Part shown: positions 36,131 to 61,608 of the stretch, in pieces
Numbering within the stretch: the stretch's first letter is position 1
Layout: every line of letters begins with the position of its first letter
Origin: Endotrypanum monterogeii
Taxonomy: Eukaryota; Euglenozoa; Kinetoplastea; Trypanosomatida; Trypanosomatidae
Assembly (NCBI GenBank): GCA_000333855.2
Contig: CM007327.1
Span: 171,611-235,610 of the forward strand
Direction: 5' to 3'
DNA: 64,000 nucleotides
Program-made: the position numbers and the translations under genes
The notes under the pieces: model-generated
The model's database searches: none
The model's input: the letters and a program-made list of their open reading frames with translations, nothing else
What the model was told of the DNA's origin: nothing

Positions 36131-36367
36131 TACGCTTTGCACACAAAGCGACTCTGCAGAATTTCGTTTTTTAACTCAGACAGAAGCAACGCAACACCTC
36201 ACAATACACACATATATATATGTATGGAGAAGGAAATATGTTCCCCCACCCCCTCATTGAGCACAGAGGTCAATCAGACAGCATCACGAAAGCGAGTAGA
36301 AAACATTTTTTTTTGTCGATACAGTGAAGAGATCCAAGACATGCCAACATCCTCGTGTTATAAGCAG

Positions 36368-41330: not shown

Positions 41331-42581
41331 AATGACGACACCAATACCCCACCAACGTTCTGGCTGATGTGGGCCGTCTGATCTGCCAACACCGTAGCCA
41401 GCGGAACCGCGACCCCGCTGAACTGAAACAAGCGATTTCCCGTAGCACAATCAGATAAATGCTAGCATCCGCCACAAATATCCGAACAGAAGTAGACACA
41501 ACAAAAACAGCACACGGATACACGCGGCCCGGGGGGGCGATAGATAACCAAGACACCACCAGCCCAAGATAGCCATTCCCAGGAAGACAAATATAATGCT
41601 TTATAGGTCCACCAGTCCACACGACGAGCCCAGACCACATTCCAGCTGCACTGTCCATGGGTTCGAAAATTATACCCAGATTCTACATTAACATACACAT
41701 AACCCAACGCTGTCGTCAAAAAAGTGGGGAAATATGCATTCCACTTCGCACCCACCAAACACCCATGCCTCGCAAAAAGCCAAGAAACAGATCCAGCAAA
41801 AACTTACAAAAACATCTACACAGTGAATTTTTACGAGAATCCTTCCTTCAAAACAGACACATATCCTCTATGAATATCACCCACACCATACCGAAGCTCT
41901 TCGAAAACGCTACTGGTTTGGGCCATTTTGCTGCAACCGCTTTCCCCTACCTGCACCACACTGGCAGCCAGAGAGGTTCCAGAAACTTTGCCGCACCGCC
42001 AAACCCTTTCACGACCAACCGTCTCAGAACTTTTTCACACCCATGATCTTCTGTACAAGAGAGCAAAGGCCACACCACCTCCGCACTGATCATCCTACCC
42101 TGTTAGTTGAAGCTGCAGTCTCAAGATCCGAGCGTGCGTCGTTTCAAAACACGGAAATGGTGTTTTCTTGCCTTACCCTCCCCCCCGGAGAGAAATCATT
42201 GAACCTTTTGTCATTGCGGGCGGTGCGTGTGCTTGTGGCGAGGGGAGGGAAGGGCTTCGCATCCTGTTTTCGTGTGGCGCGTAACTCGGCAAGGCGGCAA
42301 AATACGCCAAATCTTTCGACAGCGGACGGATTTTCCACGGGATACTGCAGATGGGGGGGGGGCCGCCCCCACTTTTGTGCAGGCAGAGTGCGCCGAGCAA
42401 GGATCATCGCCTTTTCCGTGCGGCGCCACTACGCGGGGTCACCAGTACAGCAAGAAAAAAGAATGCGTGGGAGAGGGGGAGGGGAGGTGCGCCTACGCCC
42501 TTCTAGACCCGCTGTGGATATTGTCCTTTTTTTGTGGTCACTCTTCTCGCCGGCGAACTATCTCTACAGACGAAAAAAACA

Positions 42582-42609
42582 GTATATATATGTATATATA
42601 TATATATAC
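42582..42609. repeat. AT microsatellite in strand-switch region
   Basis: Alternating TA tract with one TG interruption, starting AGTATATATATG and ending TATATACT; the outer parts are self-complementary (AGTATATAT with ATATATACT). Confidence 0.8.
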
Positions 42610-43559
42610 TGATCCACATTTTTGGGTGCGGTCAACGACCTCTTCAGTCTGAGATGCTCGCGCGACTGCTTTCTGCTTCGCCTGACTTGTGAAGTGGACG
42701 TGTGACGAGCGTTATGCTAGGAGCGGTGAAAATATTCCGTTCAAACAGTAGCGCAAACAAACACACACCCACACATTGGCGCAACTGTCCGCGCCTGCGA
42801 CGAGGGAAGGGCTATGGTGCCCTTCTCCTGTCGGCGGCTCTACTTGCGTGGCGCTAGAGTGGGTGGAATCTTGTGAGCAGAAGAAGCAGCGCCGACAGCA
42901 AATGACAGGTGTGGTTAACTTCTCGTACCGCTTCCCGGTGCGAAGCCCGGCGGCAGCGGCCGCAAATTCAATCAGCGCAAAGAACCGTTGTGAGCTCGAC
43001 GAGTCTACAACTTTTTGGATTTTTGTAGATTACCCATATCATTCCAGCGCGTAATGTCCTTTATGATGATTCCTTTTTGAGCCAGTTATAGGCAGGACAC
43101 CCTTCCCCCCCCCCGCATGCAGCCCTCGGGAACATAACCCCACAAAGATACCCACCTATACGCAATGAGCGCGAAGGCAGCCACCCGAAGAAATTAAATT
43201 GCGTGCTCATTTTTGGCTGAGGTGTTTTCCGTTGGTACCTTGGTGAATGTACCTATACCGCATTGCGCCCACCGATTTGACCGACTCGTGGCACTCCTGG
43301 GTCCTTTTATGGGTATTTCATTTGAGGGAAATGGAGAACCCCCTACAAAAATCTCCCACAACATCTGGCCAAAGTTGTTGCTTTCGTAGGGAAGAAAACG
43401 GTGTCTTTCCCCACAAGTGGAAGTAACTATTACTTTTAGATATATCTCGAAAAAAAAACGCTGAAACATAATGCATGGCGATTCCTTTGCCATAGGTGCG
43501 GAATTTTACGCATCGAAGTCAGGGTGCGGTTGGCAGGTTGCTTCCCAAGCGGGGTCGCA

Positions 43560-43984
43560 AGGGCACACCGCCATGCCTCTTCAGCCGCAACCCTATCGCG
43601 ATATCCAGCCTGCTGTGGCACACGGGGCCCACGTGGTGAGGTACCTGCTCCCCTTCCTTTTTTCTTTCCCTCAGGCGGTGTCGTCCTGTAAATGTTCCCA
43701 TCGTCTAAAAAAAAAAAGAAATAATAAAACAGTTGCGTGCCAGCAAGCAATCAGAGACAGCTGGTGTGATGCGCGGCGTCGGTGCAGAGCAGGCAGGGGT
43801 GATAGTAGGAGAGAGAGGGGCGAGATAGGCAGAGTGAGGGAGGGAGTCAAAGCACCCAGCCCTTTTGTCTTGCGTTCTGTGTGTGTGCGTGTTTGTGCTC
43901 TGCGCGTGCGGTTGCTTCGGTGGTTGGGTGGGTGGGCCGGTGGTGGTGGTGGGGTGCGGGGTGCTTTGGATGAGGGCGGCGATG
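43560..43984 (-). repeat. Dispersed element, copy 2 (inverted relative to copy 1)
   Basis: 425 bp, nearly identical to the reverse complement of 30191-30619: about five substitutions and one missing 4-bp CCCA-type unit. Both ends are sharp. It sits inside the strand-switch region, 13 kb from copy 1. A frame is open through much of it, but the same frame is not flanked by coding sequence in either copy, so it is not treated as a gene. Confidence 0.85.
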
Positions 43985-44520
43985 AAAGGATTTGTTTCGA
44001 GGGAGGTAGGGTTTGGGTCCTGGAAGGGTCTACTGGTTAATGATCCGCGTGACCTTGGTGTGGTTTGGGTGTGCTTTGGTGCGTGGGTCGGCCTCGGTTT
44101 CGTGTTTTGCGTGTCGTCGTTCGGGCCCTTCTGCGGGACCCCTCTGTGGGGCGGGGTGGCCTGGGGGGCTGTCGGTGCGGTCGTGCGGGCGGTGCTCCGT
44201 TCCAGTGGGTTGGTGTGGTTTCGTGTGCGGTTGGGGTTTTGGTCGAGTTTTGGGGCGTGTCGTTTTCGGTCGCGCGCGGGTGTGTGGTGGTTGGGTTGGT
44301 GGGACTAATGCTTTCCGGTCGGTTCGTGATAATTGGCTGAGCGTCGCCGGGGTGGGTTCGGGTGTGGTGGGGAAGGGGGGGGCTGTGGGATAGGTGCGTG
44401 AGGGTGGGTGGGTTCAGTGCGTCTTCTTTGTTTAATTTATACTTCCCCCCCACTGTCCGGATGTAGTGGCGTGTGGGGGGGGGGGGCTGTGGCTTGGACC
44501 CGGGGAAGCTTCCGAGGTTT
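43985..44520. other. G/T-rich tract in strand-switch region
   Basis: The plus strand is overwhelmingly G and T, with very many GGG, GGGG and GGTGGG groups and scarcely any A between 44040 and 44300. It starts at the edge of repeat copy 2 and ends near a G12-type run at about 44478. Confidence 0.75.
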
Positions 44521-46188
44521 TTACTTTACGGATGCGGTTCAACAACTGTTCGATTTTGAAAGGTGCTACACCTAATGTACTCCGATACCGGGTTAGTGTT
44601 TATTTGGGTCACAATTATAAGCAACCAGCTTCTTCTATTTTGAACTCACCGATGAAGGAAGGGGGGAAACAGATGAGATGGTCGCCCGTATGGAGTGGAA
44701 GTGTGCGAGCCGGAAAGCTGAGAGAGAAAAGTTTCGATTATGTCTTGTGCGCAAAACCGCATCGTTTTGCAGGAGGCGAGGACACTATCACTTCCTGAGC
44801 TGGAGAAAAAGCGACATGATCCCATAAAAGGCTTTGCTTGAGGCGGCGTGGAAGAAATCTCCAAGAAGCTGGCAGGACAGTTTACTAAAATGGATCGAGG
44901 GGCAATGTTCTTTCAGGATCACGGTGTTTTATTGTTGATATTGTGTTCTCTCAGTTACTCGAGCAAAATTTTAGTTGAGGTAGTGATCTACCGGGCGGGG
45001 AAAGGGTTGCATTGTTGGTTGTCATATTGGTGGTGGCAAAGAGGCTCCATTTTATTTTGTTTTATGGGTAGTCGAAATGAAAACATATATTTTCAGAGGT
45101 TAGCTTTTTGATGGCTGCACCGATTGCAGTGCTCTCCTGTTTGGGGGAAGTTTTTTTTTTGGTAGCGTGGTAACATGCCAACGTAGTGCATAATAGTTCG
45201 CCAGGCGGGTGGAGGTCCATTCAGGTTTGTCAGTGGCAGCAGAGAAAGCGCTGACGCGGGCTTACGTCGATATACTCCGCGCCTGTTAAAGTTTGGTACT
45301 GAGTTGAGGTCTCACGGCTCTGCACGACTCACAAGTCAAAAGGTCAGTGTTTTCTTACCTTTCTGTTCTGAAAAAAATCAGGCAGCAGTTGGGTGTGGGT
45401 TTTAGGCGACTGAGGGCTCTGCATTGTATTTATAAAACAATCAACTTTCAAATGAAAGAGCGGATGGCAATGCACATCAAACCGCTGCACTTGCTGTTTG
45501 AGCGATGGGGTGCCCATCCAGTTATCAGTGACGCTCTACACTTGCTCCCACCTCTTCGATGGTGTACGGATTGACAATACCTTCTGGATTTCCATACTCA
45601 ACGCAGGGACTAGCCGGCATAGCTAGTATTTTTTTTTTCGAGTTAGAACGTTCTATATCTTGCCTCTCTAATTGTGTCGCTGATTCTTCTCTCAACTTGT
45701 GAATACCCTTTTTTAGACCAGTGGTTTCGTCAGAGCTCGTCAAAAAAAAAAAATGTTCACTGGGAGCTGATTAACTTATCACTTTTAATGGTTTTGGCAA
45801 TGAGGTATTTTTTCAAAGTGAGCTTCATGATCGCGTAGCTTTGTCCGAGCATCGTCCACGGCACTGGCCTGGTCGAGCTGAATAACAAAGTTTTGACTTA
45901 TGTGAAGGCGATTGTGCAGCGACTCAGGCGTCAATACAACGCTGCAACATAGTGGATCAATGAAAATTAGATGCGGTGGGAAAAAAAGAAAATGATTTCG
46001 CTATTTTGTGCGATTTGAATCAGGATTCTTTGAAGTCCGAAAGAGGCCCCAAAATGCGCCTTGCATTGATGGTAGTCTTGGCTTTGCATCTCCATTGTTG
46101 ATTACACAGTAGAAAGGTCATGTTTGATAAAGCGCCAAGTGTGAAGGTGAACTTGAGGGATGCCAAACGGTTCACATCAGTGCACTCT

Positions 46189-46212
46189 TAACTCTTTTTT
46201 TTTCCTTCTCAG
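46189..46212 (+). promoter_or_regulatory. Predicted trans-splice acceptor, first gene of rightward unit
   Basis: An uninterrupted pyrimidine stretch of about 20 bases ends in TTCTCAG, with AG at 46211-46212. It lies about 100 bases before the ATG at 46314. Confidence 0.55.
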
Positions 46213-46313
46213 AGAACTCTGAGAAAATCCATTTCTCACGGCTTGCGGAGGCGTTGGTCTACTACCACTAATATCGAACATCGTTACTATAGTGCTCTTA
46301 TCGAAGTGTAAGA

Positions 46314-46793: not shown

Positions 46794-47065
46794 AACCGAC
46801 ACCCACTCGAAGACCAGCATCACATTTTTTGGTCATAACGCCCATCTGAAATGTCCGCGGTATTGCAAGTTATTGAGTCGTTTTTTTTTTTTTTCGACGG
46901 GAGGTACACCTTCTTTATGAGGGACTTGTGGAGAATTCTACCTACTGATGTTTCAAAAATTTTCAAGTGTGCGCCGCGCAAATACGTGATAAAAATCACG
47001 CGCTCTGTCCGCCTTGAGCCATATGCTGAATCCACTCGCGCATCTTCTTTCCATGATTCTTTTGA

Positions 47066-47094
47066 TTTCCTCGCTTTCTTCTCCATTTGTACAG
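47066..47094 (+). promoter_or_regulatory. Predicted trans-splice acceptor of dynein heavy chain mRNA
   Basis: A pyrimidine-rich tract ending CTCCATTTGTACAG has its AG at 47093-47094, three bases before the ATG at 47098. If used, it excludes the upstream in-frame ATGs at 47023 and 47053 from the mRNA. Another candidate is the T14 run at 46881-46894. Confidence 0.5.
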
Positions 47095-47097
47095 ACC

Positions 47098-50000
47098 ATG
47101 GAACCCACAAAAATTCAAGAAAAAGTTGGTGGTCGGCTAGAGAAAGTGCTGCGGTACTACTGGGACGGTGTACCCGTTCCGCTTCTCTGCAACGAGGGAA
47201 AGCTGAGAAGTCAAACTTTCCTTTTTAGAAAGCTTGCCTTCACACCCGATTACTATGGCGAAACCGTGGAGTTGCCCCTCGTAAGGACACAGGAAAACCA
47301 ACTGTTTAGCTCATTGTGTGATTTCGTTGATTCTCCGCAGTCGGCGACTTGCCGCATAGGCTCTCATTATTCCCCACATGTCGGTCTATTTCGCTTCGAC
47401 GAGGGAAAGAGATCTCTTGATGCTTCTCCAGAAGAGGAGGTGACAGCTGTGCGCGTGCCAACAGAGTACTGCGAAAAATGTGAAGAAGGCGCCAGTTCTG
47501 TTTCTATGGGGCATTCTCGTATCCGAACAGCGAAGATGGTGTCACTGTACAAACCTCTGATAAAAGAAAACTTTTCCATCAGTCGACAGAGCTTGCGAAA
47601 CATTTTACTTTTTTCTAGCAAAGGATGTGCTTCGATCTCAAGGGAGTTTGTCGCGCGGGAGATTTGCGATGTAAAGGAAGAGTACGCAGAAGCCGAGACA
47701 GAGGCTATCTTTTACTACATGTGCCTTAGTCCGTTGTTTCGAAAGATACTTACGCCACTTCAACTGGCAACGGAACCGCTGCCCATCGTACGTAGCTTCC
47801 ACCTGGTGGAGTTTAACAAAGCGCAGATTCCCAGGGAGTCCTTTGGCGCAGTCAAGGAGCGACTTGAAGCTCAATTGTGTTGGAATCCTCTCACGCACGA
47901 CTATTTTGTCGCACTTGGATCAATGTGGAAGGAAAAGTTTGCGCAACTTCGTGTTTTGAGCACAAATTTTTATTCAGCCTGCATTGATGTCGTTGATTTT
48001 CTCAATCAGATGTCGAAATCGATGAGTGCCGCTGTTTCACGAATTCGTATCGAGCTTTACGCATGTGTTGAAGATTTGTTTTTTGCACACTTTAAAACAG
48101 CACGTGAGGTGGTACTTCTGAGCGATGAGGAGTATGAGGTCAGTGTATTCAGAAAGGTTTTGCTCGCTACGGAGGTATTTTTAGTCAACCAGCTTCGAGG
48201 CCTTTTTCTCGATGCGCTGGATCGTCTCGTACACTTTTTTGATTGCGACGGTTTAGGAAACCGAGTGAGGATCTCACAGCGTGCTCGTCAAACGCCATCC
48301 CTTCGTGTGGAGCTAGTTGTCGGAGAAACGTTTCAGCCGCGAGCCCCAGCCTTTTCTCTCCTATTGCTTGGAATAACGGACTTCCTTGGGGAGGTCGAGA
48401 AGAACGTCAATAGCTTCCCAAGGATGTTTGGCACATTTTTTCGAACAATGGGTTTACGAGACGAAAAACTCAACGTTTTATCGCACGTGGAGTTGGCCTC
48501 GTACCGGGCCTTGATTTTGGAGATACTGGACGTTTCATCCTTGCTAATCGATCGCACTCTGTATTCCTATAGCATCTTCTGCAAGATACCGGTGAATTGC
48601 CTTCGCATTGTGAAAACGGGAACACCGGCGGAGTTCACTGAATTTGTGCTCACAGCTCGGCAAAATCTTGCAGGTATCCGTCAAGCTTCTCGCGATGTTC
48701 TTTTTCACAAACGTCTCGAAATTAATTGTTGCCCGTTGCGGGTGGAGCTGGTGGGGCACTGGGAATCTTATTTGTCCGCTTTGGTTATGGGGTTTCAAAG
48801 CACCATCGTAAGTATAATCGATAGGGCAAAGGAAAAAAGCCGGACGATTCTCGGGATGCTTCAAGGCACTCCCACTACAGCGCAAGAGTTGGAGCGTTAC
48901 CTGCGCAATACGGAAGCGGCGAGGGTTCTAGCCGACGATTTGAGCGAATCAAGCCAGAAGCAGATTCTTGACAGGGTTAGCTGCATCGAAAACCTGTATA
49001 TTCCAGTGGAGGCGCATGTTTGCCAAGCTGTTTTTGAGTTCAAAGAACTTCCCGGGGAGCTTCGTAAGCAGGTGGAAAAAAGTGAGAAGATTCGAGCTCA
49101 ATGCGCACCGCTACTGAAGAGCAAGAGGGAGGATCTACGCTGTACCATCTGTGACTACTTTCAAACTCTTTCGACAGGCGTCAGTGAGTTGTACGAAATG
49201 TTCGATTCGGACACCTCTGATATTGCAGCACAGACTTGTACGGAGCTACGCAAGCTAGTTTCCCGCATCACAGATGCCCGGCAGCGTTTTGATTACGAGA
49301 CAAGGGTGCTTGGCCTACCGCCCGACGATTCGTTCGATGAACACATGCCTCTCGTGAATCATTTCGAGATTATTGAGCAGTTTTGGATCACCTTGTTTGA
49401 ATCGACAAAACTGCGTGAGCTGTACAGGACACCTGTGTCTTCCGTCGATGCAAATGGCTTCGTGGAGCGGGTCCGCGAGTGGCGCCGGCTGATTCACAGT
49501 TCCATCCGTAACTTACGTGCATACCCTGCCTTGGTTCGTCTTGGCCACGAGCATGAATCAGCGCTCGCGAAGTTTGAGGAGCTGGAGCTTTTTCTTGAAC
49601 TCATCACAACCCCTGGACTGCGCAAGAGCCATTGGCGTGACATCGCTAAGCTGATCTCGCTGCAGTCCCCGGACGACATCCTGCTGGTAACAAATATGTC
49701 AGTTACAGTGCGGCGCTTGCTGGACGCCGGTCTGCTTAACCACATTGCACCTTTGGCGCAAATTGTTCTTCAGGCTCGCTGCGACTACTCAGTGGAGAAT
49801 GAACTTGAGGAGATGCGAAGCTCTGCCAAGCGCACACGTTTCGTTCTTGAAAGCTCATCCGGCCCAAATGACTGGAATCCACGACTTGCACACGAGTGTC
49901 GCTGCTCCATCCTGCGCCAACTCGAGGGGTACGTCGTCAAGTGTTGCGAGATGCGACGTAGACCCAGCTTGGGGCAGTCTGTCCAGAAGTCTGTGGACGA

Positions 50001-53000
50001 CTGGGTCAACGCCTGTCAAAAGAGTCACGAAGTTCTTGTAGCGTGGGATAAAGTGGCGACACGATGGCTACAGCTACGCCCGTGTTTGTCATCGATGCGG
50101 AGCGCGGTTACGGAGGGCATCTGCTCTGCCGAAGAGTCGAGCATCATCACTCGAACTCTTGCATCCGCGTCAGTTGCTTCCAAGGGCTTCTGTACGCTCT
50201 TGCACAAAGCACAGTTTTCTCTCTTCACTGTCATGGTGCAGGAAACGATCCAGGATGTCTTGCTGACTATAAAGTCTGACGTGGAGGATGCGACTGAGGT
50301 GCTGAAGGGTGTGATGGAGCGCCGTCGCTCTCTCGTCCCACGGTTCCGATTCCTGCCCGATTCTGAGCTCATGAGGTTCCAATCCGTGAAAGGTGGTCAC
50401 AGTGTCGTGCGTATCTTGCAATATATTTATCCGCGTATCGCCAACATTGAGGTAGTGGATGGAGCAGTAACCGCCGTTTTAGCAGCGGATGGCGCACGCT
50501 TACCCCTCACATCACCCTTGCCTCTAACCAAGGATATTCCGGACGTTTGGATCCAGCGCTTTGATCGCGCAGTGCGGGTATCTCTTGTCGCCGCAGTCAA
50601 AGCGTGTGTAGAAGCGTATAATCGATACAGCCTGGAGATCTGGTTGCAGCAGTGGTGCGGTCAGGTAACGGTTCTCGCCCTGCGAATTCTCCACACACAA
50701 GGGCTTCGGCGTGCTCTAGACCTTTCTGGGCTCAACGGACTGACTTCTTACATTACGAAAGTGTCGGATTTCTGCGGTTCAATCAGCAGGCGTCTGCAGG
50801 GTGAACGCGACAAACACACCAGAGGCGGGCAGGAGCAGGGGTACAAGGCTGTACTAGCGGCTGCACTGGCGTACGAGGACTTCGCCTTGAGGGAGCTTCA
50901 ACTGGCGGCAGAATGGCATGTGAGCAGTGTCACCGAACTGGAGTCCACCTGTGTTATGCAGACCTTTTTCACGGCTGCGGAAGACGGCCTCAACGTCCGT
51001 ATGATGGGTGTTGGCTTCAACTACGGGCTGGAATTTTTCGGCCATGGAAGCACGCCAGTGATGAGTGCGGCACAGTGGGTGCAGGTGGCGCCGATGCTTG
51101 TCGACATGGAGCTTTCCCACAATGTGTACCTGGTGCGTTCCGGCGACGACGTCGGGGTCGAGGGCGAAGTGTTGGAAGCTGCAGCGCTGTTTCTCGGGCG
51201 TGTTTTCTGTCGGGTTGAGGACACGGAAAATCTCTCCATCGAAACACTTCAAAGGTTGCTGCGCGGGTGCCTGGAGGTTGGGGCGTTAACTTGTCTGATG
51301 AACACTGAGACTGCGCCGAAGTGCGTGCTTGAGGAGGTCGTTTTGCCTATCGCCATCGCTTCTGTGGAGCAACGCCGTTCTCCCGTCTGGCAACTGCCCT
51401 CTGGTGAGAAGGGGGTCACAGCCGCAATTTCCGTCCACCCGCTGTTCAGACTGGCCCTTTCTGCCACTGCGCCGGTAGCGCTTCCTCGCAGTCTCGGTCT
51501 TGTTTGCAGAGAGGTGCGCGTCGCACCCTTTGGCGTTGAAGAGGCGCTTCATGATTACCTCACTTGGACTGGTGTGTTACCAGTGGGTCCGCTGACCCGC
51601 GAGGAGATAGAGTTTGCGAAGCTCTACCGGCGGTTGCAAGAACTGCAGCCGATGATCTTCACGCTAGGTCGATTGCGCGTAGTGGTCCGAGAAGCGTTTC
51701 CAAGTGCCGGTGCTTTAGGGGAAGAGGAGTCTCGAATGATTGGGTCGTCACCCTACGGATTAGTGCTCCGCCTACTGACTGCCTTGAGAAATGTGTCGGG
51801 AGTGTTCTTCACTTCCAAAGAGGGCCAGGCAGTGCGCCGGAGCCTGGAAGCACAAATCGAGGCAAAGGTGCTCCTTCCTTCGTGCAGCGGTGTCCCTACA
51901 GCGGGCTGGTGTGACCCGCCTGTCAAGTGGGCCATGTGCAGTCCGGTAGGAGGTGCCGTTTTCGAGCAGTTTTCGCTGTGGATGAATGTACACCGCCGCG
52001 TACTGCTCCTCGGACCGCAGTTTGCGGGGAAGACTCGACTGTGGCGAGCGTGGGCTGGCCCCCGGTTACCGCTAGTCATCTCACTCTCTCTCACATCTGC
52101 GGCGGAATTTTATGGCACCTCTTCGGAGCCCGGTTATCTTTCATTGATCACGTCACGGATTCGGGCTCCTCTACATCAAGGCGATATCCCTACTGTAGTG
52201 ATGGAGGATGTTGATACGGTCTCCTCCCTCGCTATTTTTTCGGGCTCTTGGTGGGACAGGGTACTCATGCGGGAGGGGGAGTCGCACAGCGGCAACACCG
52301 TCTTTCCTAGCCCACTGATGCGTGTGATCGGGACGGCGCGTGAGTTGCCCAACGCCACGCCTGGGTCGATGAGCAAGTTTGCGATGATGGCGCTCGCAGG
52401 TCCATCTTCGTGGCAGGAAGGGATTTCACATGCATTGGGTTCAATACCAGATGCAGAGTGGGCCGCAAGGGTCATTGAGAAGCTTTTACCACTGCTTGTG
52501 GAGCGCGCGTCGAGAGCCTCGCCCGAGGTAGTGCGAGGTGTAAACGACCTCACAGGCATGTACGCCATGGCCCAGCGAGCAGCAAGTTTGTGTAGGCGAT
52601 GGCACGCCTACGCATTAACACTTCGCACATACAGAGGTGCACTGGAGTTGCAAGGCGACGAGGACAACGTGCCACTGCGCCTTTTCACTGTGCGTTGTGC
52701 GGTGATGGCAGTTATCTGGTCGATAGGGTTGTCTCTCCCCGTCGAGGATCGTGACGTGCTGAAGCTGTTGCTTCTTGGTGCGGAGTTGGACATGGGCAAA
52801 GCGCTGGCGGCCTGCGAGCTCTCCGGTGACATCTTCCCAGTCTTGTCAAAAAGTGGCGTGAGTCCACTCGAGCAGATTGTTCTGCCTCATGGGTGGATAT
52901 CCTTCGAGGAGGCTGCCACGCGTACCGACTTGCCTTTGACATGGTCGAAATACCACCACACAAACCCGCATCTCGGTGCGTATTCACAAGTTTTCGCGAC

Positions 53001-56000
53001 ACCGTCACGTCTGGCGACGCTGCGAGCGGCGGAGTGCTTGATCAACTGCGGTCAGCACCTTCTCTTTCACGCCGGCCCTGTAGATGGCAAAACGACGCTG
53101 TTGCACAGTATGAGGTCGAACAAAGTCGATTGGGTCACACAAGAGTTCAGTGTAAACGGTGGGATGCGACTCACTCACGTCCAGCAGACAATGGCAAATC
53201 AGCTTCTTCAGCGTTCGGACGAACGTCTCAGCCCAGGTGCTGGCCGCCGCTTGGTTGTATGCATGGATGATGTGCATCTGAGCCCACTGTCCACATGCGG
53301 TGGAGCCGAAAGGCTGCACACCGGCTCGGTGTCTCTTGTCAGTCGCTTTATGCGCTTCTGCGAGAGGTTTCAGGCAATCAGCACGCCAAGGATAGGGACA
53401 GTATCGACGACCAACGTTGTCTTTTGCGGCTCAGCTCTCCTTCAAAAGGGTCCATTGCATCGAGAGGGGAATGAGGCCCTTGCTGTTTGTGTGGATGTCC
53501 GCTTGCCAGGGTTTGACAGTAACGAAATTTCCAGCGGGGTGCATCTGCTGTGTAGCTTGGCTTCCTCTCGCAAGCGTACGAAGGGGTTTCCGGAGGGCTG
53601 TGCAGCGTTTCTAGATCTTATCCATGGCGTGTACACTCAGCTGAAATCGCCAAGCGACACCCTTGAGTCAACCACTGCAGCTGCCCTCTCTCACCTGACG
53701 GGGAAAGCGACACAGTCTATATCGGACGTGGTGCATTCAACGCCTCTAGACCTCACCTCGGACCATATATCGGGAAGCCAGCCGCCACATATTGTATCTT
53801 GCTACTCCGAACACCTCCGCGATGCTCTGCAGGCTGCGGAAATGGTACGAATACATCTGATTAGCAATGCATCCGATGTGCAGGTTGCCACCCGAGTTTT
53901 TCTTGATCTCACAAGCTTCTACGAGAAAAAACTTCGTGTGTCGGCGTCGTCGGAGGCGATGGAATGCTCGACATTGTCACTGTTTTCGCAGCGGCACCTA
54001 ACGGGGCATGTGGGTCTCGGGTCCGTAAGTTCATCATACTCGCTCCGCGGCGCAGCAGTGAAGTCTGCGGAGGATACAATGCGCGAAAGTATCCGTGGCC
54101 TCGTTAATTTCACTGGGTTACTCCGGCAGTTGCCGATCCCTCCGTCTCCGGACATTGTCACACCTGGAGATGAGTCGTTCCTCGCAGATTGCATCGCCGA
54201 GCTCGCATATTCCTTCCAGGATGAGAGGGAGGAGGATCTTGCAAATCTGGAGGGGAAGCGTGGTCCTTTATCCGCCGCGAACATGAAAACGAGGCCAAAG
54301 TGCAGCGAGGCACAGTGTTCCTCGGTGCTGATCTTTTATTCCGACTACCCCAAAAAGGCAGTGGTGCACTTCGACGGACTACACAAGGATTCGCAGGCGC
54401 AACGATCCTCCAGCGTGATGGTGCTGAGTGCAAGCTCGTCCTTGCACGGGTCGTTCGCTGCGCCTTCAAGCCAAACTTTTTTAAGTACAATTACGGCGGC
54501 GCATCAGCAGCACCAGCAGAAAATACGATCTTCTATTCCTGTGCTGGAAAGCCCAACGTACCAGACTACGTGGATCACCACGCGTTATATTTTTCTTCAA
54601 GACGCCCTTTCCGTTCCTCATGCGCAGGTCGTGCTTCTAGGGGAGAACACCTTCGGTCTACGCCGACTTTTCCGTCTGTGGTGCGCTAGTACACACATAC
54701 CATTCGTATGGTTCAGAGTGTATCCTTCTTCTTCACGGGCAGAGGCGAGCGTCACCTTCCGTCGCGACCTGCGCCTTGCAGTCACATTTATCTGCAGGAA
54801 CAGCATTCACGCTGTCTTTTACTTCCCCCCCGAGTTGATGCGGTTGCCAGAGGTTCTGGGAACAGTAGACCTGCTCGTGCGCAGTGGCGATGTTTCAAGT
54901 CTCTTTTCAGAGGAGGAGCGCAGCTCTCTGATGCGGGGCTTTAATGTGACCCCTTCACGGTCGCTGAGATCGTCTTCCATACTCGACGACACCGCTCTTC
55001 GTGACCGCCTCAGAAGCTGCTTGAACTGTGTATTCCACCTGCGCGATACGGAGGAGTTGGAGCGAATGGCTGCTGCCTACCCTTTTTTGAGCCAGCACAA
55101 TACGAGCGTGCTGCCGTTGTACACAGATGCACTACAGGCCTCACTCTTGCGCGAGCTGGTCTTGGGGGTGCTGAGGACAAGCGACAATTCTAATAGCAGC
55201 TCTGATTTCGACGGCATCCCCATCCTCGAAGACAGCAACACAGACGATGAGGGTGGCATGGAGGGTGTTGAGAAGGGCGGCGGTGTCAGGGATGAGCGGC
55301 CTTTGAATCTGTCTCCGAGGGCTGTCTGTGAGGCTTTGTGTATCATCTTCGAACATGTCTCCAAAAGGCACACGACCTCTTTGTCGCAGCTGATAGAGTT
55401 CGTGTCGGTGTACCGGTACCTGAGCACAGTGGCACGTTTGCAAGTCCTCGAAAGCGCTAGGACGGGCTCCATCATAATGGGCCGCGGAGATGAAGCCATG
55501 CGCATGGTGAAGTTTGGAGCGCAGCGCGTACATGCCATAAATGATGATGTGGTTGCTCTGCAGACGCGCATAGCTTCGCTCTCCGAGCGGCTTCGAACTG
55601 AAGAAACCCAGCACAGGTCCCGATCGCGTGCAGCACAATCGTTTTATGCCAAGCTGGAGCTTAAGAAGGAGGCTCTCGCTCAGCAACGCGTGACTCTAGC
55701 TGATGCCCTACATAAGGTGGAGGAACGACTCGAGAAGGCTGCTCGACATCTGGTAAAGGCGAAGTTGAACAATATGCGCCTACTCGCCGTCTCGCGTGCT
55801 CCGGAAAAGGGGACTCTTCTTGTCCGGGGCCTCTATGCGGTGCTCGGTGAAGAGCTTCCCCCATGCCGCGACAATCCCCACGAGCTGTGGGGCACAGCTA
55901 TGAAACGGTTTTGCACGAAGGAGTTCACAACATCTCTGGTGAAGATACCTCCGGTAAAGGACGCTGAGTTGATGTCCACCTATCTTCCTTTGCGTCACGG

Positions 56001-59000
56001 GCTGGATGGGGTGCGGTATGCACCGGCGTTACCGTATGCTCAGCAGTTGGCTGACTTTATACTGGCATGGGTGGAGTGTGGGAGGTTTCGTACGCAGGAC
56101 TACGAGACGTCTGCTGACGCCATCGCAAAGGCTGAGAAGGAGGTGGCTGGGGACGAGGAGGTGTACTCGTTCCATCAGAGGAGCGTTCATTCCGCGGAAA
56201 GGACTGTGGAGAAAACGAAGGCAGAAATTGAGCAAGCACGACGCTCTATAGCAGAGTTGCAAAAGGAGCAGGGACAGATGACGGCGACAGAGATCCGCCT
56301 GAAGAAGTACACCGAACTGGTCGACGGGTTCTTACGATTTTTAGCTGCGCCTGCGGACGTTGCCGAGCGCATGCGGGCGGCACGCTGTGCCGACGGAGAT
56401 GCTTTTCTCGTCTCTGCCTTTTACTCGCTTCTTGCCATGCATAACGGGGCTCTTGACACCTACGAGTCCCTGCAGCAGCTGCTCGTCCAGAGGGTGCATC
56501 CCCGACTGCATTCTACAAGCCCCCAGGAGGCATTTTCCCACTTGCTCTACCAGACACACGGGCCACGCACCCGGGCGCTTATGCTGCCGGAAAGCAAGCA
56601 CCTGTCGTGGGAGTATACGGCTCTTTTCATGTCTCTTTTCAAGCGTGTCGCGTCGCGCTGGACATTGATTGGTGCTGTGACGCCACTCATTGAGCAGGAG
56701 TTGTGCAAGTATTTGTCTTACTCGTGTAATGGCTGCGTCGTCGTCTCGGTGACGGACTCAGCGGCGAAGGAGAAGCTTATTGCTGCCATGCAGGCTGGTG
56801 AAGGCGTTCTTCTGCGCGATATTCACGACTCGGAGCTCAGCGACATAATTCGCTCCCTGAACCCTCTGTACAGTCTGCTAAAAAAGCGGTGGAGAGCGGA
56901 GGAAGACCCGCAGGCGCCCTCGACCAAATCTATTCCTCGACCGGCAGACGAGGAAGAGGCTGCCGTGCCGTGCATCTCACTGATCTTGGAGGGGAGCGAG
57001 GTGAAGGTGCATCCCTCTTTTTATTTGATTTGCACCTCCTCGGTGGCCGTGTCCCTACATACCCAAGGGGTTTGTGACACACTCAACGTCTACAACCTCT
57101 TTAGCCCCATGCCCCGGCGTCCATACTACGCGTGTCTGCTTCGCGACGTCGTGTGCACCGCGCCGGTTTCTTCTAAAATGTATTCCATGCGCGAGGAAGC
57201 GCTCACGCGGCATCAGGGGTATTTCACTCTTCTGAAAAAATTTGTTCATGCACATGATACTATTGCAAAGCTTCTCGCATCAAATATGGAAACCATTTGT
57301 GATGAAGCGAGTGGAGATGCCGTAGTAGCCGAGGCCGATCAGATGCTTGCTGACATCGAGGTGTATGAGGGTCAGCTCTCGCAAACTGTTCTGCACCTGC
57401 AGAGTTGGCAACGGGTGGTGAAAGCGGCCTGGGATGCGGTATTGCCTTCCTTAGAGGCTGTCGCGAGCCTCTCCGAGCTGATCGAGGTGAGGAAGCTAAA
57501 GCGTCCATGGAGCGCGTCTGCATTGGATCGGTCGCTGAGGGAAATCGTTCGCTTTCCTCTTTTGTTCGTGCGCCGCTTTGCGCCGCAAACGTTTAGTGAT
57601 TTGTCGCAACCCCTGAAGCGTTACTACGCTGTCGTGAATTTCACGCGAAGCGTGGTGGAGCAACTCGCCGACGGCTGGCCTGTGCCAGTGAAAGATATTT
57701 TCTCGCTGTTACTGCTCTCGTCGGCGATGGCGGCTTCTCCAACCATTTCCTCGGAAAATGGCGATGCGCATGTGCTGACTGCAGAGCAGACAAGAGTGTT
57801 GCAGGATTTGATCAGTGATAGGCTTTGCTGTCCAGCGGACGGTAAAGTATCGGTACGCAATAACTCCCTGCCGGTTTTCTCGGAATCAGAGTTTTCCTCT
57901 GATGAGGACGTACTGGTGGATCTGCGCAGTAACATTCTGAGTCTTTACGCGACTTCTAAGGATCCGCTACTTCGTCGAATCTCACGAAGAGGCCACTTAG
58001 ATGCAGATCCGTTGCAGGAGATAGTTGACGACGTGGAGAGTAGTGTGGGCAGGAATCAGTTCTACGTGATGCAGCTTTTTTCGTCCATGGCTGATCTGCG
58101 CGTGGAGCAGGCAAACTACTACTCGGCTGCTCTTTACAGAATGTTCATGGATTCCGTCGTTGGTGTGCAAGGAATGGTGAGTGCGCCGAAGGTGCCTGAG
58201 ACAGCAGCTCCCGCCGATGGGGACGCAGCGGTGCGTAAGGTTAGAATCTCCCCTCATCCGACGTCGCAGGCCACTCACCACGCCAGACATGAATCGGATA
58301 CGCGCAGCGCTCCTAGCGACAACGGGAGGCCATCTTCTGATGAGGCGACCTTGCGCGAAGTGGTCTCCATGAAGGTACAGATGCGGCGTGCTGCAGACGC
58401 GCGCCAGCCCCTCTGCTTGATTACCGATTCAACATACACAGAGGCCCTCTCGTGGGTGCGCCACGAGGCCGTGGAGGCGGGTTTTTTTGTTGTCTGGCAT
58501 GATTTAATTCTTTCCAAGGTGACGACTGCGTTAGATTCTGGTGCCACTCTCTTGTGGTCCAAGAGCGAGTCACCGGGCGTCAGCTTCGAGGAGGCAAGGC
58601 AGACCATACTATCGTTGGCGAGCCAGTCCCGGTTTGCTGCGAAGGGCAGCAGCACTTGTTTGGCGCTTGTCGTGGACGCTGACGGGAAGGGAGAGGTGTG
58701 CGCAGAAGATGTGCGCATCTTCGGAGAGAAGTGTCAGCAGCTACTCGCTCTGTATTCCACTTCCTTTCGATCGTCGTCTGGCAGCAATATCTCTGGCGTT
58801 TTCTGCCTCACTGTAATTTGTTCGCCGGCCACAGAGCGGGTGCTGTGGAGAGAAGCCCTGGCAGGTTACCTGACGCCGTGCTGCTACGTTCCCATGATCA
58901 CCGTAACCCCTCAGCAGCGCCTTGTGGAGCTGCTCCAGCCGTCGCGACGGTACTTCACCGAGGGTGGCGCGGTTCAAATATTGGAGGCGATTCTGCAGAA

Positions 59001-61608
59001 CGTGTTGGAGATGGAAAGTCGAAAGGGCACCGACGCCGAGAACAGGCAACCTACAGTCAAGACAATTCGCGTCCGCGGTTCGGCCCTGACGAGGCTGCCA
59101 GTACCCCAAAGTGCCGCACAGACTTCGACGACGCTGGCCGCACTCCCTCGCTCTCTCTCGTCTGCCACCCTCATGGTACTGCGAAAGGCGATGGAGGATT
59201 TGGTGTCTCGCGCTCGTTTGGTTCATCACGAGTTGGTTGTGACTCACGTAGTCTCAACTTTGCGTGTGTGCATGCGTTCGGAGGGGGACACACTGGGAAG
59301 CTACGTCGACGATTCAGACGCACTGATGCAACTACATGACTTGTTGTCTGCATGGATTCTGCGGTGCTACGAGGGACTCGTTGGCGTCCTCGTGAACTTA
59401 CCCGAGGAGAGGATGCAAAGTTCTACCAAAGACCGGACTCCTATGGCGGAGAACATCATCTCGGAGGCTGGCAGCGCATCCTTGAAGGACGGCCCGGGCC
59501 TTTCGCTAGCGTCGCATCCCCTGCCCCAACACGACGTGTTGGAACTGAAAGCATTGCCCTACAGCCTGAAGGCGTACTACTATCTGCGGCGCCGTCAACC
59601 CGCGTGGCAGATGGTTATGGAGCGATACCTTCAAACGAGAAGAGATGGTTTACCGGAATCTTCGTCCTTTGGCACATCCGCCATTCAAGAGCGCTTCACA
59701 CACGCTGTGCTTTCCATTACTTCGAACTCGATGATAGATAGCGCGCTTTTGTCTCGCAACTTCGTCAGCCGTGACAGCAGCACTTCAGACCCCCAAGCAG
59801 CTTGGCTAGCCGACCCGTTACATCGCTTAGAGGACTTGCGTCAGTGTTCAACACAGCGGAGTATAGTGGAATTCACGATGGAGCAGTGGCGCACCGGATT
59901 GCTCGTGATGGCCCGCCAGTTCGCTTTCTTTGTGTATTGTCGCCGTTGCAACCGTGAAATGCCGGTCATTGAACAGCAAGCGCAGTGGTTGATGTTCCGT
60001 GCCTTGGTCGGGACGCCGGAGCATGCTAGCGAGCTTCCCTGCCTGGGGTGGCAGAACTCTGAGGGTTATGCAGGAGGAGAGGCATGGCGATCGCTTATCC
60101 TCGATGCCCATCAACTTGATCGGTTTTCGCAGGAGGTGGCTCTGTTCCCCTCTGATTTGACGGAGCTGTGTGGTGATGCAACGGTAACAAAACGGTTTCG
60201 GTCGATGCGACGACAGGCCATTTTCCGTCTGTGCTTTCCCCCTGGCAACAGTACAACTGACCGCTTCAGCGTCCCGCGCTGCAAGACAGACGAGTCTACC
60301 GCCAGCTTTTTAACTCTTCCTTTGGTGGGGGGCCTGGGTGTGTTTCAGGGAAGGCCTGGTGCGCAAGCCAGCGATTCAGCTTCTGCCGATCATGGCGAGG
60401 AGACCGCGACGAGGTGGGACGGGCCACCACCTCTTACATCGGCGCGCTTTTTGTCCTTGGATATGCCTGCCGCGCGGCAACAGAGACAGGCCTCTTCCAT
60501 GGATCTTGTCCCGCACATTTCGTCTACGGTGGATAGGCTGCACACACAGGTGTACCTGCCAGCTCTGCATCATCCTATTGTAGATATCGAGCTCCTCACA
60601 GCGATGGTCGACTGCCGCTCCCCGTTGAATCCTAACGGCACTGCAGAGGCACGACCTATGCCCGCTACGTCGCGGGAAGACGAACCCTTCGCTGGCAGCT
60701 CGTCCCTGGAAGGTGGGGGCGGGGGTGATGACAATTTTGTGGGCGATGGTGACCACAGCGCCGCCGTCAGTCGGATCGTTTTGGTGGTTACGCAGCGACG
60801 CTACATGATGCCCTCTGACCTCGTGCTGTCTGGGGCTCGTCTTTCGGATTCGCTGGAGAGGCAGCTGGTAGCTCACACGCCATGGTCACTAGGTCAGGGA
60901 GACGATAGCCGTCACGCAAAGCTTCCGGCCATGGTGGTGGTAGCTCGTCGAGTGCTAGTTCGACCACGCGCTCAGTACGTGGAGTCCTGGTCTAGGAAGG
61001 GAGAGGCGCTTCCTCTGCCAGTTAGCTACGAGATAGGTATGCGGATGTGGATGACAAGTCCGCTGCAGGGCGCGGTTCATAGCAGTTGGCGGGTGCTATG
61101 GCGGGCGGTTCCATGGTCGCGCCTACCAGCGGACGCATTCCTCTGGGATACCTCCGCCTCGTGCCGCCTCCCTGAAACATCCGTCGCGTATGCCCTGTCA
61201 TCAAATTCAGAGCATTCTCGACGCCGAGGGAATCCTTCCAGCAATGTCTTTGTCACGGAGATGGAGGAGTCAGCGGAGGCTGCCACATCGAGGTGTTTGA
61301 ATCTTAGTGCACCCCGTGCATGGGCCGTTACAGAGGTGCCCATACCTGTGCGTTGGCATCCTCTCTCAGACAACCCAAGGGGCACCCCCAAAGGGCGAGG
61401 TGAGTGTATGCTGGAGCTATACCTCTGCGTCGAGTACGAGCCGCTGTCGGTGCATACCTCTAGTTCAAGCGCCGACGATTTCAACAGTTCGCAGCTGTCC
61501 CCGCAGCTGACTCCCACAGCTGGTGCCTCCTCTTTTCTGGCCACTCAATGGGAGTGGAGCACACTGCACCTTCGAGACACACTGGACGCCTACGTCTGGA
61601 TCGAGTGA
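47098..61608 (+). CDS. Divergent dynein heavy chain with degenerate AAA1 (pseudo-ATPase) module
   Basis: About 4836 residues from the ATG at 47098 (an upstream in-frame ATG at 47023 would add 25 residues encoded by a splice tract). Tail: residues 1 to ~1290. AAA1 (~1298-1488) is recognisable by NYGLEFFG, aligning with the dynein FEYGYEYLG start, but where GPAGTGKTET should be it reads SGDDVGVEGE (~1349-1358), and the CFDEFNR and NPGYAGRTELP motifs are lost. AAA2 has GPQFAGKT (1639-1646) and TVVMEDVD. AAA3 has GPVDGKTT (1993-2000) and VVCMDD (Asp2057/2058). AAA4 reads GENTFGLRR (from ~2515), with no Lys. The stalk is two coiled coils (~2800-2890, ~3000-3077) around a tip domain (ARLLA-like start, AVLGEELPPC). 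AAA5/AAA6 follow (RWTLIGAV, EGVLLRDI, VHPSFYLICTS). The C-terminal part (~1750 residues after the stalk) is longer than usual and carries low-complexity inserts. Family firm; conventional motor activity unlikely. Confidence 0.87.
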   Translation: MEPTKIQEKVGGRLEKVLRYYWDGVPVPLLCNEGKLRSQTFLFRKLAFTPDYYGETVELPLVRTQENQLFSSLCDFVDSPQSATCRIGSHYSPHVGLFRFDEGKRSLDASPEEEVTAVRVPTEYCEKCEEGASSVSMGHSRIRTAKMVSLYKPLIKENFSISRQSLRNILLFSSKGCASISREFVAREICDVKEEYAEAETEAIFYYMCLSPLFRKILTPLQLATEPLPIVRSFHLVEFNKAQIPRESFGAVKERLEAQLCWNPLTHDYFVALGSMWKEKFAQLRVLSTNFYSACIDVVDFLNQMSKSMSAAVSRIRIELYACVEDLFFAHFKTAREVVLLSDEEYEVSVFRKVLLATEVFLVNQLRGLFLDALDRLVHFFDCDGLGNRVRISQRARQTPSLRVELVVGETFQPRAPAFSLLLLGITDFLGEVEKNVNSFPRMFGTFFRTMGLRDEKLNVLSHVELASYRALILEILDVSSLLIDRTLYSYSIFCKIPVNCLRIVKTGTPAEFTEFVLTARQNLAGIRQASRDVLFHKRLEINCCPLRVELVGHWESYLSALVMGFQSTIVSIIDRAKEKSRTILGMLQGTPTTAQELERYLRNTEAARVLADDLSESSQKQILDRVSCIENLYIPVEAHVCQAVFEFKELPGELRKQVEKSEKIRAQCAPLLKSKREDLRCTICDYFQTLSTGVSELYEMFDSDTSDIAAQTCTELRKLVSRITDARQRFDYETRVLGLPPDDSFDEHMPLVNHFEIIEQFWITLFESTKLRELYRTPVSSVDANGFVERVREWRRLIHSSIRNLRAYPALVRLGHEHESALAKFEELELFLELITTPGLRKSHWRDIAKLISLQSPDDILLVTNMSVTVRRLLDAGLLNHIAPLAQIVLQARCDYSVENELEEMRSSAKRTRFVLESSSGPNDWNPRLAHECRCSILRQLEGYVVKCCEMRRRPSLGQSVQKSVDDWVNACQKSHEVLVAWDKVATRWLQLRPCLSSMRSAVTEGICSAEESSIITRTLASASVASKGFCTLLHKAQFSLFTVMVQETIQDVLLTIKSDVEDATEVLKGVMERRRSLVPRFRFLPDSELMRFQSVKGGHSVVRILQYIYPRIANIEVVDGAVTAVLAADGARLPLTSPLPLTKDIPDVWIQRFDRAVRVSLVAAVKACVEAYNRYSLEIWLQQWCGQVTVLALRILHTQGLRRALDLSGLNGLTSYITKVSDFCGSISRRLQGERDKHTRGGQEQGYKAVLAAALAYEDFALRELQLAAEWHVSSVTELESTCVMQTFFTAAEDGLNVRMMGVGFNYGLEFFGHGSTPVMSAAQWVQVAPMLVDMELSHNVYLVRSGDDVGVEGEVLEAAALFLGRVFCRVEDTENLSIETLQRLLRGCLEVGALTCLMNTETAPKCVLEEVVLPIAIASVEQRRSPVWQLPSGEKGVTAAISVHPLFRLALSATAPVALPRSLGLVCREVRVAPFGVEEALHDYLTWTGVLPVGPLTREEIEFAKLYRRLQELQPMIFTLGRLRVVVREAFPSAGALGEEESRMIGSSPYGLVLRLLTALRNVSGVFFTSKEGQAVRRSLEAQIEAKVLLPSCSGVPTAGWCDPPVKWAMCSPVGGAVFEQFSLWMNVHRRVLLLGPQFAGKTRLWRAWAGPRLPLVISLSLTSAAEFYGTSSEPGYLSLITSRIRAPLHQGDIPTVVMEDVDTVSSLAIFSGSWWDRVLMREGESHSGNTVFPSPLMRVIGTARELPNATPGSMSKFAMMALAGPSSWQEGISHALGSIPDAEWAARVIEKLLPLLVERASRASPEVVRGVNDLTGMYAMAQRAASLCRRWHAYALTLRTYRGALELQGDEDNVPLRLFTVRCAVMAVIWSIGLSLPVEDRDVLKLLLLGAELDMGKALAACELSGDIFPVLSKSGVSPLEQIVLPHGWISFEEAATRTDLPLTWSKYHHTNPHLGAYSQVFATPSRLATLRAAECLINCGQHLLFHAGPVDGKTTLLHSMRSNKVDWVTQEFSVNGGMRLTHVQQTMANQLLQRSDERLSPGAGRRLVVCMDDVHLSPLSTCGGAERLHTGSVSLVSRFMRFCERFQAISTPRIGTVSTTNVVFCGSALLQKGPLHREGNEALAVCVDVRLPGFDSNEISSGVHLLCSLASSRKRTKGFPEGCAAFLDLIHGVYTQLKSPSDTLESTTAAALSHLTGKATQSISDVVHSTPLDLTSDHISGSQPPHIVSCYSEHLRDALQAAEMVRIHLISNASDVQVATRVFLDLTSFYEKKLRVSASSEAMECSTLSLFSQRHLTGHVGLGSVSSSYSLRGAAVKSAEDTMRESIRGLVNFTGLLRQLPIPPSPDIVTPGDESFLADCIAELAYSFQDEREEDLANLEGKRGPLSAANMKTRPKCSEAQCSSVLIFYSDYPKKAVVHFDGLHKDSQAQRSSSVMVLSASSSLHGSFAAPSSQTFLSTITAAHQQHQQKIRSSIPVLESPTYQTTWITTRYIFLQDALSVPHAQVVLLGENTFGLRRLFRLWCASTHIPFVWFRVYPSSSRAEASVTFRRDLRLAVTFICRNSIHAVFYFPPELMRLPEVLGTVDLLVRSGDVSSLFSEEERSSLMRGFNVTPSRSLRSSSILDDTALRDRLRSCLNCVFHLRDTEELERMAAAYPFLSQHNTSVLPLYTDALQASLLRELVLGVLRTSDNSNSSSDFDGIPILEDSNTDDEGGMEGVEKGGGVRDERPLNLSPRAVCEALCIIFEHVSKRHTTSLSQLIEFVSVYRYLSTVARLQVLESARTGSIIMGRGDEAMRMVKFGAQRVHAINDDVVALQTRIASLSERLRTEETQHRSRSRAAQSFYAKLELKKEALAQQRVTLADALHKVEERLEKAARHLVKAKLNNMRLLAVSRAPEKGTLLVRGLYAVLGEELPPCRDNPHELWGTAMKRFCTKEFTTSLVKIPPVKDAELMSTYLPLRHGLDGVRYAPALPYAQQLADFILAWVECGRFRTQDYETSADAIAKAEKEVAGDEEVYSFHQRSVHSAERTVEKTKAEIEQARRSIAELQKEQGQMTATEIRLKKYTELVDGFLRFLAAPADVAERMRAARCADGDAFLVSAFYSLLAMHNGALDTYESLQQLLVQRVHPRLHSTSPQEAFSHLLYQTHGPRTRALMLPESKHLSWEYTALFMSLFKRVASRWTLIGAVTPLIEQELCKYLSYSCNGCVVVSVTDSAAKEKLIAAMQAGEGVLLRDIHDSELSDIIRSLNPLYSLLKKRWRAEEDPQAPSTKSIPRPADEEEAAVPCISLILEGSEVKVHPSFYLICTSSVAVSLHTQGVCDTLNVYNLFSPMPRRPYYACLLRDVVCTAPVSSKMYSMREEALTRHQGYFTLLKKFVHAHDTIAKLLASNMETICDEASGDAVVAEADQMLADIEVYEGQLSQTVLHLQSWQRVVKAAWDAVLPSLEAVASLSELIEVRKLKRPWSASALDRSLREIVRFPLLFVRRFAPQTFSDLSQPLKRYYAVVNFTRSVVEQLADGWPVPVKDIFSLLLLSSAMAASPTISSENGDAHVLTAEQTRVLQDLISDRLCCPADGKVSVRNNSLPVFSESEFSSDEDVLVDLRSNILSLYATSKDPLLRRISRRGHLDADPLQEIVDDVESSVGRNQFYVMQLFSSMADLRVEQANYYSAALYRMFMDSVVGVQGMVSAPKVPETAAPADGDAAVRKVRISPHPTSQATHHARHESDTRSAPSDNGRPSSDEATLREVVSMKVQMRRAADARQPLCLITDSTYTEALSWVRHEAVEAGFFVVWHDLILSKVTTALDSGATLLWSKSESPGVSFEEARQTILSLASQSRFAAKGSSTCLALVVDADGKGEVCAEDVRIFGEKCQQLLALYSTSFRSSSGSNISGVFCLTVICSPATERVLWREALAGYLTPCCYVPMITVTPQQRLVELLQPSRRYFTEGGAVQILEAILQNVLEMESRKGTDAENRQPTVKTIRVRGSALTRLPVPQSAAQTSTTLAALPRSLSSATLMVLRKAMEDLVSRARLVHHELVVTHVVSTLRVCMRSEGDTLGSYVDDSDALMQLHDLLSAWILRCYEGLVGVLVNLPEERMQSSTKDRTPMAENIISEAGSASLKDGPGLSLASHPLPQHDVLELKALPYSLKAYYYLRRRQPAWQMVMERYLQTRRDGLPESSSFGTSAIQERFTHAVLSITSNSMIDSALLSRNFVSRDSSTSDPQAAWLADPLHRLEDLRQCSTQRSIVEFTMEQWRTGLLVMARQFAFFVYCRRCNREMPVIEQQAQWLMFRALVGTPEHASELPCLGWQNSEGYAGGEAWRSLILDAHQLDRFSQEVALFPSDLTELCGDATVTKRFRSMRRQAIFRLCFPPGNSTTDRFSVPRCKTDESTASFLTLPLVGGLGVFQGRPGAQASDSASADHGEETATRWDGPPPLTSARFLSLDMPAARQQRQASSMDLVPHISSTVDRLHTQVYLPALHHPIVDIELLTAMVDCRSPLNPNGTAEARPMPATSREDEPFAGSSSLEGGGGGDDNFVGDGDHSAAVSRIVLVVTQRRYMMPSDLVLSGARLSDSLERQLVAHTPWSLGQGDDSRHAKLPAMVVVARRVLVRPRAQYVESWSRKGEALPLPVSYEIGMRMWMTSPLQGAVHSSWRVLWRAVPWSRLPADAFLWDTSASCRLPETSVAYALSSNSEHSRRRGNPSSNVFVTEMEESAEAATSRCLNLSAPRAWAVTEVPIPVRWHPLSDNPRGTPKGRGECMLELYLCVEYEPLSVHTSSSSADDFNSSQLSPQLTPTAGASSFLATQWEWSTLHLRDTLDAYVWIE

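Follow-up and report, generated by a model that had tools for sequence, protein, structure and literature searches.

A dynein heavy-chain homologue with a degenerate AAA1 site in Endotrypanum monterogeii

The window analyzed here is a 64,000-nucleotide stretch of contig CM007327.1 of the trypanosomatid Endotrypanum monterogeii. Its plus strand carries a gene for a dynein-heavy-chain homologue of 4836 aa (47098..61608) in which the only stop codon is the terminal one. Random sequence of the same base composition would be expected to contain ~190 stops, and the absence of internal stops noted in the initial annotation is upheld. The open frame extends from a TTG at 47014 to 61608 (4864 codons); translation likely starts at the ATG at 47098 (MEPTKIQEKV), as this start resembles the N-termini of relatives.

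Dyneins are taken as motors since ATP hydrolysis at AAA1 is regarded as essential in those studied. The window protein belongs to the dynein heavy chain superfamily by descent, having the DHC_N2 linker, the AAA1 to AAA5 order and a stalk with a microtubule-binding domain. The features of a dynein motor, namely an AAA1 Walker A of the form GPAGTGK[ST], a CFDEFNR Walker B and the NPGYAGR motif, are all missing.

The AAA1 site of the window protein

We scanned the genome (30.7 Mb, 44 contigs, with the window on contig C7) using the Pfam models DHC_N2 and AAA_6, the latter being the model for AAA1. DHC_N2 marked 14 loci and AAA_6 marked 13; the sole locus without AAA_6 was the window gene, and GPAGTGKT was present in AAA1 of all 13 others. 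Seven of the 13 fetched pairs hold N runs (20 bases in six, 820 in C36), which may or may not touch the frames. In agreement with the scan, hmmscan of the window protein returned a strong DHC_N2 and no AAA_6.

To the window gene we added 21 database proteins (P0002-P0013, P0015-P0020 and P0035-P0037), giving a family of 22 aligned members with lengths of 4223-5304 aa. Those with a species name come from Leishmania, Porcisia, Trypanosoma melophagium and T. vivax. Leishmania and Porcisia account for eight of the 22, and these eight are therefore not independent. The closest relative of the window protein is that of Porcisia hertigi (71% identity over 99% of its length), Porcisia being a genus of Leishmaniinae. 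No T. brucei or T. cruzi orthologue surfaced in the protein searches, in which word-based candidate picking can miss distant ones. Against the PDB, the T. vivax copy matched T. brucei chains at paralogue level only (best 9e5c row, 93 bits).

As shown in Table 1, a profile of AAA1 alone, built from the 22 sequences, found the module present and in register, as first proposed, and the same profile reversed served as control. AAA_6 also appears in the precomputed Pfam list for five relatives (P0017, P0018, P0019, P0036 and P0037), which supports AAA1 homology even though all five lack the P-loop. When a family profile (19 sequences) was compared with a profile of the 13 paralogues by HHalign, a single collinear match of 2719 columns was obtained (E 5e-82), in which the AAA1 to AAA5 modules follow the dynein order.

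In these alignments GDDVGVEG----E faces GAPAGPAGTGKTE, and a four-residue gap takes out TGKT: GDDVGVEG lies opposite GAPAGPAG of the paralogues, the gap opposite TGKT, and E opposite E. CLMNTET faces CFDEFNR at the top confidence digit, and NPGYAGR has no counterpart in the family profile. The exact position of the gap depends on the aligner, as MAFFT places VEGE opposite TGKT; it still yields no P-loop. The readings given earlier for the two Walker positions, SGDDVGVEGE and GALTCLMNTETAP, were confirmed in the DNA, and so was the loss of CFDEFNR and NPGYAGR. The degeneracy extends to every relative found, and no alignment with the profiles placed an intact GxxGxGKT in AAA1.

Judged by its sequence, AAA1 catalysis in the window protein is excluded, and AAA1-driven motility is almost certainly absent. 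The term pseudo-motor used in the initial annotation is therefore apt for AAA1 and too broad for the ring, where the P-loops of AAA2 and AAA3 persist, so that the ring need not be nucleotide-free.

The structure prediction proposed earlier was carried out with AlphaFold2 on the linker-AAA1-AAA2 segment (A1), and the model was too poor to be of use: the mean predicted local distance difference test score (pLDDT) was 66, the predicted TM-score was 0.39, and the AAA1 stretch scored mostly 33-76. Foldseek matched this model to dynein motors with an E of 3e-23, but the listed TM-scores were only 0.22-0.29. We therefore set aside its support for an AAA1 fold.

Domains kept, domains lost and constraint

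The linker, AAA2, AAA3, an AAA4-like fold, the stalk and the microtubule-binding domain are all recognizable in the window protein (Table 1). The first reading had overlooked the kept P-loops of AAA2 and AAA3, the lost P-loop of AAA4, and the kept stalk with its microtubule-binding domain. It had also called the chain full-size, which stands for length and may not hold for every domain. Residues ~370-680 of the tail match canonical tails weakly (HHalign E 7e-5, probability 62%), AAA5 and part of AAA6 match at an HHalign E of 2.2e-9, and Pfam AAA_7 and AAA_8 fall slightly under cut-off. A complete AAA6 and C-terminal domain showed no profile similarity in HHalign, although an eroded domain could escape such a search. 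At the position of the AAA4 lysine, the paralogue C28a has Arg.

Table 1. Coordinates of the dynein features in the window
Feature	Position	Strand	Evidence
N-terminal tail	47098..49242	+	77% identity to Porcisia, 66% to L. mexicana
Linker (Pfam DHC_N2), best-preserved dynein domain	49357..50607	+	Pfam E 3.9e-41, over cut-off; HHalign E 5e-43
Degenerate AAA1 module	50974..51708	+	HHalign E 3.8e-14 over 230 columns; reversed control 0.43
Former AAA1 Walker A, SGDDVGVEGE (canonical GPAGTGKTE)	51139..51168	+	Intact motif in 0/22 family members
Former AAA1 Walker B, GALTCLMNTETAP (canonical GAWACFDEFNRI)	51280..51318	+	Profile alignment
AAA2 P-loop GPQFAGKT, kept	52012..52035	+	Full GxxxxGK[ST] in 19/22 members
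AAA3 P-loop AGPVDGKTT, kept	53071..53097	+	[AG]xxxxG[KR][ST] in 22/22 (Lys 18, Arg 4)
AAA3 Walker B VVCMDDVHLS, kept	53254..53283	+	Asp-Asp in 22/22
Former AAA4 P-loop GENTFGLRRLF	54640..54672	+	Walker A lysine absent and not replaced by Arg in 22/22
Stalk (coiled coil 1, microtubule-binding domain, coiled coil 2)	55381..56346	+	
Microtubule-binding domain, short helices between the coiled-coil arms	55765..56004	+	
C-terminal ~1,290 residues, unlike the canonical end (AAA6 remainder, C-terminal domain)	57748..61605	+	HHalign best E 0.36-0.47

AAA3 probably binds nucleotide. Its hydrolysis is doubtful because two elements appear to be missing: in the family we could see neither the sensor-1 stretch, where the alignment is of low confidence, nor the motif for the Arg finger that AAA4 contributes (RxRxRxFP in the paralogue). 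It could be speculated that AAA3 is now the main catalytic site and still moves the stalk somewhat, as AAA3 alone has a P-loop-like motif in all members; however, this is very improbable given the replacement of its Lys by Arg in four of them, the poor conservation of the sensor-1 and Arg-finger stretches, and the published effects of AAA3, which operate via AAA1. In both Trypanosoma members (P0036 and P0037) the AAA2 P-loop is damaged or lost and AAA3 is the sole complete P-loop.

We compared regional identity over six regions in seven family pairs (each including the window protein) and seven canonical pairs; the same DNAH1 recurs in three of the canonical pairs, and another of them joins two paralogues. 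AAA1 was the most conserved region in all seven canonical pairs (69-98%), with the tail least conserved. In the family pairs AAA1 never ranked first; the linker did so in five and AAA3 in two. The peak of constraint has therefore moved off AAA1.

The claim of strong selection made in the initial annotation was too strong. Identity between the window protein and its L. braziliensis relative is 61%, compared to 81% between the intraflagellar transport (IFT)-type dynein C34b and its L. guyanensis relative, and the window protein therefore evolves faster than C34b. This rate, together with the erosion of AAA1, AAA4 and the C-terminus, would fit a slowly decaying relic of an inner-arm dynein whose function is gone. 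We nevertheless regard such a relic as very unlikely. Long open frames occur in all 22 members from Leishmania to Trypanosoma (the searches admitted lengths of 0.55-1.75 of the query, so that short remnants would escape), the ~190 chance stops are absent, and the AAA3 Walker motifs, the stalk and the linker are kept. Because the AAA1 loss is common to all members, each of them long, ordinary pseudogene decay is unlikely.

There is also a possible sign of transcription. In an RNA-seq study of L. infantum (PMC7706067), the genes raised in an antimony-resistant line include the dynein heavy chain LINF_070010300, listed at 5.90. Since contig C7 carries a single heavy chain in the genome analyzed here, this chromosome-7 gene is probably the same gene, and if so the gene is transcribed. 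We consider it highly likely that the window gene encodes a conserved functional protein and is not a pseudogene.

An assembly error or a mis-called frame is hardly credible. The 3′ flank does contain an assembly gap (an N run at 62036-62273, adjoining a tandemly repeated stretch), but the gap is outside the gene and the AAA1 P-loop is absent from 21 other database sequences.

Relation to inner-arm dyneins and DNHD1

Trees were built from the linker to AAA2 (1100 columns) with 12 of the 22 family sequences, the 13 paralogues, 11 other dyneins and one DNHD1. By tree, ten of the paralogues are axonemal and three are cytoplasmic or IFT chains. The longest of the 14 heavy-chain frames of the genome is that of a cytoplasmic-dynein-like chain (G000 C22:435885-443339, 5552 residues).

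In the full tree the family forms a clade whose stem is very long, with DNHD1 beside it and apart from the canonical chains (99.4/99). Without DNHD1, the family becomes sister to DNAH1/3/7/12 and three paralogues (100/100). Without the family, DNHD1 branches off basally among the axonemal chains (85.8/78). When DNHD1 was included and the family was constrained to the inner-arm placement, the cost was 22 log units under LG+F+R4 (approximately unbiased test, p-AU 0.039) and 5 log units under LG+C20+F+G (p-AU 0.30). Orthology to DNHD1, supported by the first tree, was later judged a probable long-branch effect in view of taxon removal and LG+C20+F+G. The trees suggest that the DNHD1 link is probably long-branch attraction and that an inner-arm origin of the family is likely.

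Matches in the PDB agree with inner-arm kinship, as DNAH1, 3 and 7 chains lead and 12 is lower; the best match of the window protein among solved chains is DNAH1 (92 bits). DNAH1, DNAH3, DNAH7 and DNAH12, the single-headed inner-arm chains, correspond to families IAD-3/4/5 of Wickstead and Gull 2007, and they share with the window protein the order of linker, AAA modules, stalk and microtubule-binding domain. In contrast to these chains, the family has no AAA1 P-loop, Walker B or NPGYAGR and no AAA4 P-loop; the C-terminal ~1,290 residues of the window protein are unrecognizable, and its L. tarentolae copy is no chain of the solved axonemal repeat. Wickstead and Gull state that only sequences scoring >1600 against hidden Markov models were retained and extremely divergent ones were excluded. 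We infer that the window gene was among those excluded.

Trypanosomatid IFT dynein is a heterodimer of two cytoplasmic-dynein-2 heavy chains; like the window gene, it adds heavy chains beyond the arm dyneins to the same genome. Unlike the window protein, the presumed IFT chains of this genome, C34b and C27, keep GPAGTGKT and group with cytoplasmic dyneins.

The vertebrate orphan DNHD1, called a ghost gene and possibly turning pseudogene in PMC8754002, is the nearest known precedent for an AAA1-damaged heavy chain, whatever its kinship with the window family. It is likewise a heavy-chain homologue, and in alligator its AAA1 P-loop reads GRRATGRT, with Arg for Lys. On the other hand, its AAA1 is far less eroded than that of the window family, and it has two further intact P-loops that we took by spacing as AAA2 and AAA3. 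From the sequences compared, the kinetoplastid family is the more eroded at AAA1 and is widely kept.

One possibility is that the window protein is a flagellum-assembly or packaging factor like DNHD1, and may be its kinetoplastid counterpart; DNHD1 variants have been reported with abnormal sperm flagella, as human genetic work describes, and its loss with malformed ones. The full tree, the low p-AU of the inner-arm placement under LG+F+R4 and the lysine missing from alligator DNHD1 as well are in keeping with this. However, DNHD1 and the family are the longest branches and attach at different points when either is removed, the preference is not significant under LG+C20+F+G, the tree holds a single DNHD1 sequence, and the family profile scores only 35 bits against DNHD1 compared to 142 bits for the best DNAH match in the same search. 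We consider this explanation distinctly unlikely.

A possible non-motor role

Without ATP at AAA1 there would be neither a priming stroke nor an ATP-triggered release. With AAA1 lost and the stalk and microtubule-binding domain kept, an ATP-insensitive binder is to be expected: the stalk would hold microtubules whatever the ATP state while the tail docks on another structure, and binding strength would depend on load. ATP or ADP at AAA2 and AAA3 would be structural or would act as a slow switch. Because such binding would be combined with a kept linker and tail, a static tether or scaffold leads among the explanations. In our estimation the chances are evenly balanced that the window protein is a heavy-chain homologue that has given up its AAA1 ATPase and serves as a non-motor microtubule-binding tether or scaffold; that its job is specifically that of a static microtubule tether or cross-linker is plausible, though a little short of probable.

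Several observations weigh against this interpretation. The mechanism is drawn from yeast cytoplasmic dynein and would have to transfer to the window protein. AAA6 in part and the C-terminal domain went undetected, and closure of the ring is therefore unproven; the model of the stalk side has a mean pLDDT of only 65, and with the AAA1-AAA2 model poor, AAA1 homology stands on sequence profiles and not on structure. The AAA2 P-loop is lost in T. vivax P0037, while P0020 and P0036 (T. melophagium) keep GK without Ser/Thr, and Arg replaces the AAA3 Lys in P0013, P0015, P0016 and P0020. No localization, binding or protein-expression datum for the window protein was found in the literature searched. 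Finally, its absence from the axonemal structure considered below could mean that it is not flagellar at all.

The L. tarentolae 96-nm repeat (PDB 9Y6S, identified as such in a preprint, PMC12637542) is described in that preprint as resolving all major axonemal dyneins. When the L. tarentolae relative P0006 was compared with the PDB, no chain rose beyond paralogue level (best overall row 79.5 bits, best 9y6s row 34.8 bits). According to the literature, chains are needed in trypanosomatids for an outer arm of two chains, an IDAf that also has two, and six single-headed arms. The ten axonemal paralogues equal this number, which appears to leave no arm for the fourteenth chain. It may lie away from the regular repeat, occur in sub-stoichiometric amounts, have come off during preparation or gone unresolved in the structure, or have no place in the flagellum.

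Another possibility is a regulatory or structural partner, in which the window protein would be the dead head of a heterodimer, joined through the tail to an active heavy chain that it modulates. Conservation is comparatively high in the linker and tail, and the same literature describes for trypanosomatids an inner arm with two heads and an outer arm with two chains. This is unlikely, however, as the tree without DNHD1 groups the family with the single-headed DNAH1/3/7/12 type and not with two-headed or IFT chains, and the L. tarentolae structure paper identified the heavy chains within each dynein, the window protein not being a 9Y6S chain.

Returning to the tether, we tentatively suggest that since at least the ancestor of Leishmania and Trypanosoma, trypanosomatids may have kept a dedicated non-motor dynein, a nucleotide-tuned static microtubule clamp outside the axonemal arms in which the AAA1 engine is gone, the linker, ring and stalk are kept, and AAA3 is the only P-loop-like site that every member shares. 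If true, evolution would have produced an equivalent of the AAA1-dead mutant made in the laboratory. An AAA1-less family with linker, AAA3 and stalk allows the roles of these parts to be separated from the requirements of a motor, and nature thereby provides a test of the AAA3 ‘gate’ idea. The family further contributes a fourteenth heavy chain outside the solved L. tarentolae repeat and offers an independent comparison for DNHD1, a human infertility gene that has been called a ghost gene. No description of the gene as an AAA1-less dynein was recognized in the literature searched, with subscription papers mostly outside its scope.

Pfam searches of eight neighboring frames showed no functional link to the dynein gene. 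The minus strand encodes a protein of 3580 aa that ends in a RAVE protein 1 C-terminal domain (3062-13804, E 3e-38), perhaps a Rabconnectin-3/DMXL-like giant; a 514-aa protein with a SIN1 pleckstrin-homology domain (24472-26016, E 3e-11), perhaps a TORC2 Sin1/AVO1 subunit; and an acyl-CoA dehydrogenase with an ACAD9/ACADV C-terminal domain (34571-36142). Between these minus-strand genes and the plus-strand dynein gene, 39226-46313 holds no long frame and is likely a divergent strand switch.
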